In this document: in pieces, positions 9,106-32,588 of the stretch
Position numbering within the stretch: position 1 is the first letter of the stretch
Layout: each line of letters begins with the position of its first letter
Assembly: GCA_020351745.1 (NCBI GenBank)
Contig: CP070665.1
Coordinates: forward strand, 962,843-997,772
From: Candidatus Heimdallarchaeota archaeon
Lineage (GTDB): Archaea; Asgardarchaeota; Heimdallarchaeia; Hodarchaeales; Hodarchaeaceae
Length of the DNA: 34,930 bases
Direction of reading: 5' to 3'
The notes under the pieces: generated by a model
The model's database searches: none
What the model was told of the DNA's origin: nothing
What the model saw: only the letters and a program-made list of their open reading frames with translations
Made by a program: the position numbers and the translations under genes

Positions 9106-9231
9106 TGGGCCTGGGGGGATTTGAACCCACGACCATCCGGTTTCTCAAACTCATTTGAGCTATATGAGCCGGACGCTCTAACCATTTCAGAGAGTGAAAG
9201 CGTTAAACACCCTAAACTGAGCTACAGGCCC
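9106..9231 (-). tRNA. tRNA-Met(CAU), elongator-like, with two introns
   Basis: Minus strand: acceptor GGGCCTG/CAGGCCC, discriminator A, D-stem GCTC/GAGC, anticodon stem TCCGG/CCGGA, anticodon CAT, T-loop TTCAAAT. The anticodon-loop intron at 9142-9162 (21 nt) is a model BHB: CUCA/UGAG central helix, bulges UAU and AAA, inner helix AGCUC/GAGUU. The D-loop is 40 nt, implying a second intron of about 30 nt near 9182-9211. Mature length is about 75 nt. The T-stem has one U-C mismatch. CAT could also be tRNA-Ile2 with a modified C34, but the stem sequence resembles elongator tRNA-Met. CCA is not encoded. Confidence 0.85.
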
Positions 9232-20609: not shown

Positions 20610-23096
20610 ATGACTTCAATTGGAACAGTAGTTGCTACATCAGACTCACCAAGTCTAGAGAATATTGAATTAATCCTTGATAAGAATGATCATCAACAGA
20701 TTGAGAGAGGGCAATTTGTGACCATTCCAAAAAACAAAAATCAGGTAGTTTTGGGAATTATTACTGGAATAAAGAAGTATAATGCTTATTATGAAACTTT
20801 GGACTCAAGTGTTCAAGAAATAGCTTCCCGAAATTATGAAGCGATTTTTCCAATCAAAGAATGGGAAAGTACTTTGGCAAATATAAAACCACTTGGAGAA
20901 ATAAGTCTTGAAAGCGGAGGAATAAGCCGATTGAAGTTTCCTGTCTCTCCTGGCTCAAAAGTATATGTTGCTTCGTCTTCAGTTGTATCGAAATTTCTAG
21001 GCCTTGATAATAATGGGATATATTGGGGAGATCTCCCTTCTAACAATGTAAAAATAAGGATAAATCTTTCCAGATTATTACGTAAGCATCTTGCTATATT
21101 AGCAATATCTGGTGCTGGGAAATCATATGCTGTATCTATTCTATTAGAAGAGTTATCTAAGAAAGGGAAAATGAGTGTTCTTGTCATTGATCCTCATGGG
21201 GAATATTCCAGTATTATACCAACCAAGGCGGAAGGTACAAACATTGAAGTCATTAGAGGTTCTTTCATATCAATTGGAGTCCCAGAACTGTCAGCGTGGG
21301 AAATTTCGGAATTCATTCCAGAAATATCAGTTGTACAAACGAGAGTTTTAGATAATATCATTTCTAGTATTCAACAGAAGAATAGAAATTGTTATGGCTT
21401 ACAGGATATCATTCAAATAATTGATACTTCAGAAATAATTAATGTCCGAACAAAAGAAGCACTAATAAGCTGGTTATACTCTTTACAACGTACATATTTG
21501 TTTTCTACGGAAACTAGTCCTAATGTTACAGAATTGTTTCAACCTGGTAAGATAGTAATTCTAGATTTATCAGAGATTCAAAATCTACGAAGTCGAAGTA
21601 TTATTGTATTACATTTCCTGAAACATCTTTACTATCAACGTACAAGAGAGAAAATTCCCCCATCTTTGTTTGTGATTGAAGAAGCTCATCAGTTCTGTTT
21701 AAGCAAAGATACAGAGCTGTTAACTAGTAAAGGATGGAAAAACTATGCAGATGTAAAAGTTGGAGATTTGGCTTTTTCTTATAATAGGGAATTAAAAAGA
21801 TTAGAATTAGCGAAAATTAAGAGATTAATTGTACAAAACTATGAAGGAGAGATGATAAAGCTTTTCAATGAAGATAGCATTAACGCATTAGTTACGAAGG
21901 ATCATAGGGTGTTATGTAATTATAGAACTGTAAGGAAGGATCGCAAATTTTGCTGGTCTAATGATACATTCAGATTTGCAAGAAACTTACCAAGTAATAT
22001 AAGAATACCCGTAACCGCCGAATTTACTAGAAATGGGAAATGCAATATTGATGAAGATCTGTTAAAGATTATTGGTTGGATTCTAACAGATGGTCATATC
22101 CACTATTATGCAAATAAAAAGCATTTTAGATACGAAATTACACAATCAGAAGCTAAAGGAATTATATTACAAGAGATGACTGAAGTTATTACGAGAAAGT
22201 ATCCTGAAACAAGTATTTATGTTCGAAAGGAAGAAGATGAAAAAATCAAAAGAAAACCTGATCACAGTTTTCATTTCAAGAGAAAAGCATCGCAAGAGAT
22301 TGATGTTTGGCTTTTGAAAGAACCACACAGAATTCCAAGAGAAATTCTAGAAAAATGCGATCTTTCTCAATTAAAAATTCTTTTTAATGCGATGGTACAA
22401 GGGGATGGTAATATCCAATACAGTAAAAATGGTTACAAATATATCACATTTTATGCTGGAAAAAACAAAGGTATAGCAGATGATTTTCAAGAATTATGTG
22501 TTAAAATAGGTCTATCAGCAATTCAAAAATTTATTCCCCAAAACAATCAATTTAGGGTACTTGTCTCGTTTAAACGAAAATTTGCTCACGTTAGAAAAAC
22601 AACGACCGAGTTTTATTCAGGTAAAGTGTGGGATATTACAATTAATAATGGTGCCTTTGTTGCTAGAAGGAATGGAAGAGTATTCATTACTGGTAACTGT
22701 CCAGAAGGCTCTCGTTCCATTTCAAAACGTATTATCGAAACAATTGCGCGTGAAGGAAGGAAATTTTACGCTTCATTATGTTTAATATCACAACGTCCAG
22801 TGAATCTGTCTGTTACAGCTCTTTCTCAATGTAATACCAATTTAATTCTTCGTATAAGAAACCCATATGACCAGGATTTCATTGGAAAAACTTCTGAAGG
22901 TATTGATCGTTCTACTCTTAAAATGATTCCTGATTTAGAAATTGGAGAGGCTCTTTTGGTTGGAGAAGGCATCAATTACCCAACTTTCTTTCGGATTAGA
23001 TCACGGACGTTTTACAGTAAAGATTTATCGCCAGATTTGGAAACAATGGCAGACAAGTATAAAGAAACTTGGAGTGTCAAACGTGATACTTCTTAG
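20610..23096 (+). CDS. herA: HerA DNA helicase/translocase interrupted by an intein
   Basis: 828 residues encoded, with an extein of about 494 (normal HerA length). The N-terminal HAS-barrel region is followed by Walker A SGAGKS (K171), VLVIDPHGEY, and Walker B FVIEE (354-358). Immediately after EEAHQF a 334-residue intein (363-696) interrupts the chain, and CPEGSRSISKRIIETIAREGRK resumes the ATPase core. Then SQRPVNLSVTALSQCNTNLILRI and the C-terminal brace. Splicing is needed to rebuild the active site. HerA is a hexameric pump that works with NurA encoded just upstream. Start is ATG 20610. Confidence 0.95.
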   Translation: MTSIGTVVATSDSPSLENIELILDKNDHQQIERGQFVTIPKNKNQVVLGIITGIKKYNAYYETLDSSVQEIASRNYEAIFPIKEWESTLANIKPLGEISLESGGISRLKFPVSPGSKVYVASSSVVSKFLGLDNNGIYWGDLPSNNVKIRINLSRLLRKHLAILAISGAGKSYAVSILLEELSKKGKMSVLVIDPHGEYSSIIPTKAEGTNIEVIRGSFISIGVPELSAWEISEFIPEISVVQTRVLDNIISSIQQKNRNCYGLQDIIQIIDTSEIINVRTKEALISWLYSLQRTYLFSTETSPNVTELFQPGKIVILDLSEIQNLRSRSIIVLHFLKHLYYQRTREKIPPSLFVIEEAHQFCLSKDTELLTSKGWKNYADVKVGDLAFSYNRELKRLELAKIKRLIVQNYEGEMIKLFNEDSINALVTKDHRVLCNYRTVRKDRKFCWSNDTFRFARNLPSNIRIPVTAEFTRNGKCNIDEDLLKIIGWILTDGHIHYYANKKHFRYEITQSEAKGIILQEMTEVITRKYPETSIYVRKEEDEKIKRKPDHSFHFKRKASQEIDVWLLKEPHRIPREILEKCDLSQLKILFNAMVQGDGNIQYSKNGYKYITFYAGKNKGIADDFQELCVKIGLSAIQKFIPQNNQFRVLVSFKRKFAHVRKTTTEFYSGKVWDITINNGAFVARRNGRVFITGNCPEGSRSISKRIIETIAREGRKFYASLCLISQRPVNLSVTALSQCNTNLILRIRNPYDQDFIGKTSEGIDRSTLKMIPDLEIGEALLVGEGINYPTFFRIRSRTFYSKDLSPDLETMADKYKETWSVKRDTS
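21696..22697 (+). mobile_element. HerA intein with LAGLIDADG-type homing endonuclease
   Basis: Coding bases for HerA residues 363-696. Block A is CLSKDTELLTSKGW (nucleophile Cys). Block B is ALVTKDHRVL (TxxH). The endonuclease motifs are IIGWILTDG and AMVQGDG. Block F is VWDITINNGAFVAR. Block G is RVFITGN followed by extein Cys697. The penultimate residue is Gly in place of the usual His. The intein writes Arg almost entirely with AGA/AGG while the flanking extein often uses CGN, which suggests separate origin. Insertion next to Walker B is typical of inteins in P-loop proteins. Confidence 0.93.
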
Positions 23097-29108: not shown

Positions 29109-29307
29109 GGGGACGTAGCGAAGCTAGTGGTCTTACTACAAGCTAGTAAGACCGGACAAGTATCGCGCCGGGCTCCAGAACCCCCTGTGAACTCCACTGG
29201 GTTAACTGAAACTCATGATGAAGTTCTGGAAAAACGAGGAAACTCGGTGTCACCTCTGCCTGCAGCAGGGTGTCCGAAAATCGCCGGTTCAAATCCGGCC
29301 GTCCCCA
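29109..29307 (+). tRNA. tRNA-Trp(CCA) with a D-loop insertion and a long anticodon intron
   Basis: Acceptor GGGGACG/CGTCCCC, discriminator A, D-stem GCGA/TCGC, anticodon stem CCGGG with anticodon CCA (29175-29177), T-arm GCCGG/CCGGC with loop TTCAAAT. The D-loop (29122-29162) is 41 nt and contains a perfect 10-bp hairpin (29129-29138 with 29144-29153), suggesting an insertion of about 30 nt; the splice sites are not resolved. The anticodon-loop intron spans about 29179-29271 (about 93 nt). It has a closing CCCTG/CAGGG stem, a CGAG-GAAA-CTCG hairpin, and box C-like and D-like motifs. The 3' half of the anticodon stem (TCCGA) leaves a C-A mismatch at 27-43. Confidence 0.85.
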
Positions 29308-30440: not shown

Positions 30441-30545
30441 GGGCCAGTGGTGAAGTAGGTATCACGCCGTCTTCGCAAGGCGGAGCGTCCATGGGGTTCG
30501 CCCTTGGATGATCGTAACCCCCGAGTTCGAGTCTCGGCTGGTCCA
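30441..30545 (+). tRNA. tRNA-Ala(CGC) with a variable-loop intron
   Basis: Acceptor GGGCCAG/CTGGTCC includes the G3-U70 wobble, the alanine identity element. Discriminator A. D-arm GTGA/TCAC with loop AGTAGGTA, anticodon stem CCGTC/GGCGG with loop TTCGCAA (anticodon CGC), T-arm CCGAG/CTCGG with loop TTCGAGT. Between the anticodon arm and T-stem are 37 nt (30484-30520) where about 5 are expected. The excess of about 32 nt folds into a hairpin (TCCA.GGG/CCC.TGGA around 30488-30508). A long class II variable arm is unlikely for Ala. No intron in the anticodon loop. CCA is not encoded. Confidence 0.87.
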
Positions 30546-31875: not shown

Positions 31876-32325
31876 ATGTCAAAAAAGCAACCTGAAAGAA
31901 ATAAAGGAAATTTGTCACGACTCCCTTGGATTCCTGGACTTAAAAAGCCCACGATCGATTTCAGGGTTCCAGATATCGAACTCCCCTATGAAGCGCCTCA
32001 TAAATACATTTTAGCTTTAATTCTCTTTGTAACGCTATTCATTTTAGCTGGTGGGCTTTACAATCTTACTGAACAACCATTACCAATGGGACAGACTGAA
32101 ACTCAGCTTGTTCCAGTCTTCAAATCGTCAAGCGAACAGTTTTTAGTCGAATCCCTTATAGCTGGACTATTTTTTGGTTTAGGAGGAGGAGGCCTTTTTT
32201 TGATTCGTCACTCAACTCGTTTTGCTTATGACATCAGGTCTTCAATTACATTATTAATCCTGGGGATTATACTTACTCTGGTTGCAGCAGGCGGAACTGT
32301 TGTAATGTACGACTTTAAAACTTAA
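31876..32325 (+). CDS. Three-pass membrane protein, candidate Ost3/Ost6-like
   Basis: 149 residues. A polar N-terminus with Pro-rich motifs (PWIPGLKKPTIDFRVPDIELPYE) is followed by three predicted membrane segments: about 43-63 (YILALILFVTLFILAGGLYNL), 94-112 (ESLIAGLFFGLGGGGLFLI) and 123-144 (SITLLILGIILTLVAAGGTVVMY). The loop with PLPMG, then SSSEQFLVESLIAGL, resembles the QxQF.xES region of eukaryotic Ost3/Ost6 oligosaccharyltransferase subunits, and the C-terminus ends shortly after the last segment with a Lys. There is no thioredoxin domain. The assignment is by eye; a lineage-specific membrane protein is the alternative. Confidence 0.55.
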   Translation: MSKKQPERNKGNLSRLPWIPGLKKPTIDFRVPDIELPYEAPHKYILALILFVTLFILAGGLYNLTEQPLPMGQTETQLVPVFKSSSEQFLVESLIAGLFFGLGGGGLFLIRHSTRFAYDIRSSITLLILGIILTLVAAGGTVVMYDFKT

Positions 32326-32350
32326 TAAATCATCATTAACTATCCACTTT

Positions 32351-32571
32351 GCCGGGGTTTTGTGCATACATTCGGCTTTACAATCTCCAAAGGTATTACA
32401 ATTCGAAAGCCAAGTGGACGGGTTAATGGTTTTCCATTTCCCTGTAGTACGGCGCTGGCCTTGAGTCCTAAAACAAATGAAAAGCTGTGTCAGAAAGCCA
32501 GTGTACTTTTTGTACCCGAGGGTTCGAATCTCAGGATGTTATTATTCTGAGAGAAAATCCCTCCCCCGGCG
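32351..32571 (+). tRNA. tRNA-Ser(UGA) with four introns
   Basis: Acceptor GCCGGGG (32351-32357) pairs with CCCCGGC (32564-32570), discriminator G, as in archaeal tRNA-Ser. Between position 8 and 9: 49-nt intron 32359-32407, giving mature GCCGGGG-TA-GCC. D-loop: 39 nt (32412-32450) containing a hairpin at 32420-32442, so an intron of about 28 nt. Anticodon stem CTGGC/GCCAG, anticodon TGA (32462-32464), intron 32466-32495 (30 nt). Class II variable arm GTAC-TTTTT-GTAC. T-stem GAGGG/CCCTC with a T-loop intron 32529-32557 (29 nt, TCTCAG/CTGAGA hairpin), giving mature loop TTCGAAT. Removal of all four leaves about 85 nt, right for tRNA-Ser. Confidence 0.85.
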
Positions 32572-32578
32572 CTTTACA

Positions 32579-32588
32579 CTTTTTTTTT
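32579..32588 (+). terminator. Oligo-T terminator after tRNA-Ser(UGA)
   Basis: A run of nine or more T begins about 8 bases after the discriminator base, as expected for termination of an archaeal tRNA transcript. Confidence 0.55.

Follow-up and report, generated by a model that had tools for sequence, protein, structure and literature searches.

A Hodarchaeales tRNA-Ser(UGA) gene with four predicted introns and a possible origin by recombination of tandem copies

Sequence analysis of a 34,930-nucleotide stretch of DNA from a Hodarchaeales (Asgard) archaeon, hereafter the window, points with high confidence to a real tRNA-Ser(UGA) gene carrying four introns at positions 32351-32571 of the plus strand (221 nt). 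The introns are located after nucleotides 8, 20a, 37, and 59 of the predicted tRNA, with respective lengths of 49, 28, 30, and 29 nt. The acceptor strands GCCGGGG (32351-32357) and CCCCGGC (32564-32570) flank every tRNA part, all of which follow in order, and the discriminator is G32571. The first-pass annotation of this DNA had described acceptor arms separated by 206 bases with ordered tRNA elements between them, and all of these coordinates were reproduced here. The four insertion places it proposed (8/9, D-loop, 37/38, and T-loop) were likewise retained, with the D-loop site refined to 20a/20b and the T-loop site to 59/60. We consider that a functional tRNA-Ser(UGA) with four partly relaxed BHB-type introns, processed by a splicing endonuclease and RtcB, would explain the observations reported below, with a probability of about 0.9; its origin through recombination is put at about even odds. 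The parts of the gene and its immediate surroundings are as follows:

32322-32330, plus strand: TATA-like sequence TTAATAAAT, 29 bases 5' of the gene; candidate promoter, identified by eye
32351-32358, plus strand: exon 1, nucleotides 1-8, acceptor 5' strand and U8
32359-32407, plus strand: intron 1, position 8/9, 49 nt; CGGG/UUCG central helix, GUU and AAA bulges, UUGU/ACAA inner helix
32408-32419, plus strand: exon 2, A9 to 20a, 5' part of the D-arm
32420-32447, plus strand: intron 2, D-loop position 20a/20b, 28 nt, relaxed BHB
32448-32465, plus strand: exon 3, 20b to 37, 3' part of the D-arm and anticodon UGA
32466-32495, plus strand: intron 3, canonical position 37/38, 30 nt, relaxed BHB
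32496-32528, plus strand: exon 4, 38 to 59, anticodon 3' strand, variable arm, T-stem 5' strand, and most of the T-loop
32529-32557, plus strand: intron 4, T-loop position 59/60, 29 nt; UUCG/AGAA, inner helix CUCAGG/UCUGAG
32558-32571, plus strand: exon 5, U60, 3' strands of the T-stem and acceptor, discriminator G
32580-32588, plus strand: run of nine T 3' of the gene; candidate terminator, identified by eye

Removal of all four introns in silico resulted in an 85-nt product that ARAGORN called as tRNA-Ser(tga) with every stem formed, and none of the other 15 of the 16 intron-removal combinations produced a tRNA call. The spliced product exhibits the features expected of an archaeal tRNA-Ser(UGA), i.e., a 7-bp acceptor, D-arm, UGA anticodon, long variable arm, T-arm, and discriminator G, and excision of the T-loop insertion restores the TTCGAAT that had been anticipated. 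The unspliced gene was missed on the window by both ARAGORN and the Rfam tRNA model, which indicates that four-intron genes of this kind escape standard tRNA finders. In the covariance-model check suggested earlier, the Rfam model failed to detect the gene, and one made from related tRNA-Ser sequences after splicing matched it partially, with the 5' part mis-assigned. A second, uninterrupted tRNA-Ser(UGA), with the present copy silent, had been named as evidence that would speak against the reading; the exon-3 sequence has one match in the 1.39-Mb contig, and no further tRNA-Ser(UGA) gene was found there, in a genome estimated to be about 71.5% complete.

Comparison with related genomes provided the main evidence for the intron boundaries. 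The set comprised 11 congeneric genomes (G001-G011; the window genome is G000, with the window at G000:C1:962843-997772) along with more distant genomes of the class. A pattern search with exon 3 across the class returned one extra weak match only, and a model search was used instead. Nine of the 11 congeners have an orthologue and one more, G007, a tandem pair, all carrying subsets of the four introns, and no copy was found in G009, which is about 70% complete. G001, G002, G004, G008, G010, and G011 harbor the 8/9, D, and 37/38 introns; G005 (CP070695.1) and G003 harbor the D, 37/38, and T-loop introns; and G006 conserves the D and 37/38 introns only. The 8/9 intron is thus absent from G005, G003, G006, and copy 2 of G007, and the T-loop intron from G006, G001, G002, G004, G008, G010, and G011. 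In other words, every genus member in which the gene was detected has the D and 37/38 introns, those at 8/9 and in the T-loop are variable, and among the copies compared only the window gene unites all four. Intronless genes lacking the D and 37/38 introns were detected in L110, L112, and L117, which belong to another family of the same class. Their D-arm, GCCAAGYGGACAACGGC, is identical to the one expected after splicing in G003, G004, G005, and G007 copy 2, and the spliced D-arm of the window gene differs from it in having U rather than A at 20b. The comparison of the same gene across relatives, proposed as a check on the first-pass annotation, hence bore out every junction: each of the four introns is missing at its predicted junction in at least one relative, so that the boundaries are shown by comparison. 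Between the window gene and its intact orthologues, identity amounts to 92-97% in the exons and 49-90% in the introns. Congeners at 83-96% completeness have one such gene each, G007 excepted. In relatives with readable context the gene sits upstream of S10-S7. The S7 protein of the window shares 81-93% identity with its counterparts in Hodarchaeota, Heimdallarchaeota, and Candidatus Hodarchaeum mangrovi genomes, which marks the source as an Asgard archaeon of the Hodarchaeales type. Together, these sequence comparisons support four introns in one gene as the best reading.

The introns were also analyzed for the BHB form (two 3-nt bulges, a 4-bp helix between them, and an inner helix), which is present in strict or relaxed versions at all sites, being good at 8/9 and the T-loop and relaxed at the D-loop and 37/38. 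The BHB originally drawn for the 8/9 site (CGGG/UUCG with bulges GUU and AAA) proved right, and in other species the CGGG/UUCG of the window is replaced by CGGG/CCCG. The inner helix of the T-loop intron covaries in the carriers G005, G003, and G007 copy 2, with CUCAGG/UCUGAG, CUCAGG/CCUGGG, UCCAGG/CCUGAA, and UUCUGG/CCCGAA observed across the four genes at 59/60. Pairing of the window introns compared with shuffled introns yielded P=0.0015 for 8/9 and P=0.006 for the T-loop, and the D and 37/38 introns of the window taken alone did not reach significance (P=0.14 and 0.10, respectively). When pairing at the predicted BHB positions was instead evaluated over 12 gene copies, the mean at the predicted register, out of nine positions, was 7.75 (8/9), 7.33 (D), 6.25 (37/38), and 7.75 (T-loop), and sliding either the 5' or the 3' splice site lowered it to 5.75 or less for all four introns. 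Along with the outcome of the intron-removal combinations and the higher identity of exons than introns, this speaks against a chance arrangement. Several alternative D-loop splice sites pair equally well or better when genomes are taken singly; 20a/20b was preferred for its recurrence across the genus and because it yields the D-arm of the intronless relatives. Energy-based folding of the precursor did not favor the BHB central helices, which had low pair probabilities; only the inner helix of the T-loop intron was stable, and the 8/9 helix competed with the acceptor stem. If the 8/9 BHB works as drawn, excision of this intron may precede synthesis of the 3' acceptor strand.

The genome, as well as most of its congeners, encodes two PF01974 genes, for which the best PDB matches were 3p1z, 3ajv, and 2cv8. 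The 183-aa subunit conserves the Tyr/His/Lys triad together with the Lys of the crenarchaeal-type loop and best matches crenarchaeal catalytic subunits (3p1z, E 1e-42), and the 210-aa subunit has neither the catalytic His nor the loop. K39 of the 183-aa subunit corresponds in the alignment to the position-44 Lys of the A. pernix chain, and K44 is named as the loop Lys in PMC6379350. According to this review, relaxed motifs are cut by (alpha-beta)2 and epsilon2 enzymes, with the loop Lys being needed (PMC6379350). As judged from its genes, the splicing endonuclease is predicted to be a two-subunit enzyme of the (alpha-beta)2 type with a crenarchaeal-type loop. RtcB was detected in 11 of the 12 genus members; the exception is the window genome itself, about 71.5% complete, in which the search found none. 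An (alpha-beta)2-type endonuclease with a crenarchaeal-type loop would accordingly make eight cuts in the 221-nt precursor, and RtcB would join the five exons into an 85-nt tRNA reading UCA; expression, splicing, and ligation are inferred. Four introns would mean that this tRNA is assembled from five pieces through eight cuts and four ligations.

Other interrupted tRNAs were observed in the same genome. At window positions 29109-29306 (plus strand), an apparent tRNA-Trp(CCA) contains three introns, located in the D-loop, after the anticodon (a long one), and in the variable region; neither ARAGORN nor Rfam at the gathering threshold detected it. Its long intron contains TGATGA and CTGA, resembling the intronic C/D guide RNA known from archaeal tRNA-Trp. 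At 9106-9231 (minus strand), the Rfam model matched a tRNA with a CAT anticodon whose two introns lie in the D-loop and the anticodon loop, and a tRNA with a variable-region insertion at 30441-30545 (plus strand) was found in the whole-genome scan and not in the window scan. Elsewhere in the genome, the tRNA-Thr(TGT) at L019 (G000:C1:152362-152416, minus strand, extended) has a T-loop intron, apparently at 59/60, with UUCA/UGAA pairing of the type found in the serine gene, which indicates that T-loop introns recur in this genome. The window also includes an 828-aa ATPase ORF (20610-23096, plus strand) with an apparent intein (VIEEAHQF-CLSKDTELLT ... VFITGN-CPEGSR), recognized by eye.

The tandem pair of G007 (contig C266, L106) suggests how the four-intron state may have arisen. 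Its two tRNA-Ser(UGA) copies have matched exon-3 sequences 187 bp apart. The upstream copy 1 carries the 8/9, D, and 37/38 introns and has lost the 3' acceptor strand, so that it looks like a pseudogene, and copy 2 carries the D, 37/38, and T-loop introns. The 8/9 intron of the window is nearest to that of copy 1 (69%, versus 49-57% in others), its D intron is 89% identical to copy 1 versus 79% to copy 2, and its T-loop intron is nearest to that of copy 2 (90%). The introns of G005 are copy-2-like (D 89%, 37/38 76%, and T-loop 83%). Recombination between tandem tRNA-Ser copies would have joined an 8/9-bearing 5' part to a 3' part with the T-loop intron, and we hold at about even odds that such an event between two three-intron paralogues, suggested by these sequence similarities, is the simplest source of the four-intron gene. 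Base 17 (U) of the D-loop exon in the window counts against it, fitting copy 2 and not copy 1, as does the weak resolution of the species tree, and with both in view the introns may have been gained and lost in another order. Trees built from S7 and from the upstream 149-aa protein were too weakly resolved to date events. Flank identity was set aside as evidence on recombination, because position alone accounts for it. It is also conceivable, with a lesser yet appreciable probability, that the genus ancestor had all four introns and its descendants lost one or two, with no paralogue recombination needed. The occurrence of 8/9 introns on either side of the tree, itself weakly resolved, agrees with such an ancestor, which would however require several independent precise losses, and the complementary intron sets of the G007 copies, of which the window gene is a mosaic, argue in favor of recombination instead.

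Two further explanations would deny the gene its four introns or its function. An assembly chimera, in which the genome really has two tandem three-intron genes and the assembler fused a 5' part and a 3' part from different members of the pair, draws on the fact that G007 has exactly such a pair and that the four-intron combination is known from one assembly. We regard it as very unlikely, since the G007 copies share no identical stretch of more than 17 nt, which is little for an assembly to collapse on, the gene lies within a single 1.39-Mb contig with neighbors as in relatives, and the spliced gene is intact. Even less probable is a decaying or silent copy, i.e., a pseudogene whose real tRNA-Ser(UGA) counterpart lies in the missing part of this genome: the estimated completeness of about 71.5% leaves space for such a counterpart, and one of the two G007 copies is indeed broken, but all stems of the window gene are intact, its exons remain 92-97% identical to intact relatives while its introns have diverged, and congeners of 83-96% completeness, apart from G007, have a single such gene.

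Should the recombination reading be correct, it would provide a direct route to tRNA intron accumulation without new insertion, and the variety of intron sets among members of a single genus, combined with the tandem pair, makes the gain, loss, and combination of tRNA introns testable. Hodarchaeales is an Asgard lineage discussed in relation to the origin of eukaryotes, and heavy tRNA interruption would now be placed in this order alongside a splicing endonuclease type of broad specificity. The published maximum of three introns in one archaeal tRNA gene would be raised to four. The tRNAscan-SE 2.0 paper, as well as reviews, put the upper limit for a single archaeal tRNA gene at three introns (PMC8450103, PMC4033280, PMC4390854, PMC3218864), and the earlier statement of an "up to three" limit agrees with PMC8450103, PMC4033280, and PMC4390854; in algae, too, three introns per tRNA gene have been described (PMC4090602, PMC9602550). 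A literature search for archaeal tRNAs with four introns, its coverage ending short of the Asgard intron table of PMC11291895, returned nothing relevant. The count in the window gene is therefore supported as exceeding the maximum in archaeal reviews; the text of PMC11291895 consulted here gives no per-gene maximum, so that genes with four introns may occur there too and the window gene may not be the first. That this is the first four-intron tRNA gene in any organism, and that it was built by recombination of neighboring three-intron paralogues, is a combined claim we put forward only tentatively.

Among known systems, the three-intron genes of Thermoproteales, such as the tRNA-Glu(UUC) of Pyrobaculum calidifontis and the tRNA-Pro(UGG) of P. 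islandicum (PMC4390854), likewise bring together small BHB-type introns, several per gene, in canonical as well as noncanonical sites; these genes reach at most three introns (PMC8450103, PMC4033280), whereas the window gene has four and belongs to an Asgard archaeon. The intron-rich tRNA genes described for Atabeyarchaeia and Freyarchaeia (PMC11291895) are also from Asgard archaea and, in the text consulted, also use noncanonical positions, but represent an Asgard lineage different from Hodarchaeales. In the red alga Cyanidioschyzon merolae, tRNA-Ile(UAU) (PMC9602550) has introns in the D-, anticodon, and T-arms as in the window gene, its three introns including none at 8/9, where the window gene has one. 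The closest counterpart is the G007 tandem pair at the orthologous locus, in which all four introns are distributed across both copies, no copy exceeds three, and copy 1 lacks the 3' acceptor strand that the window gene retains.
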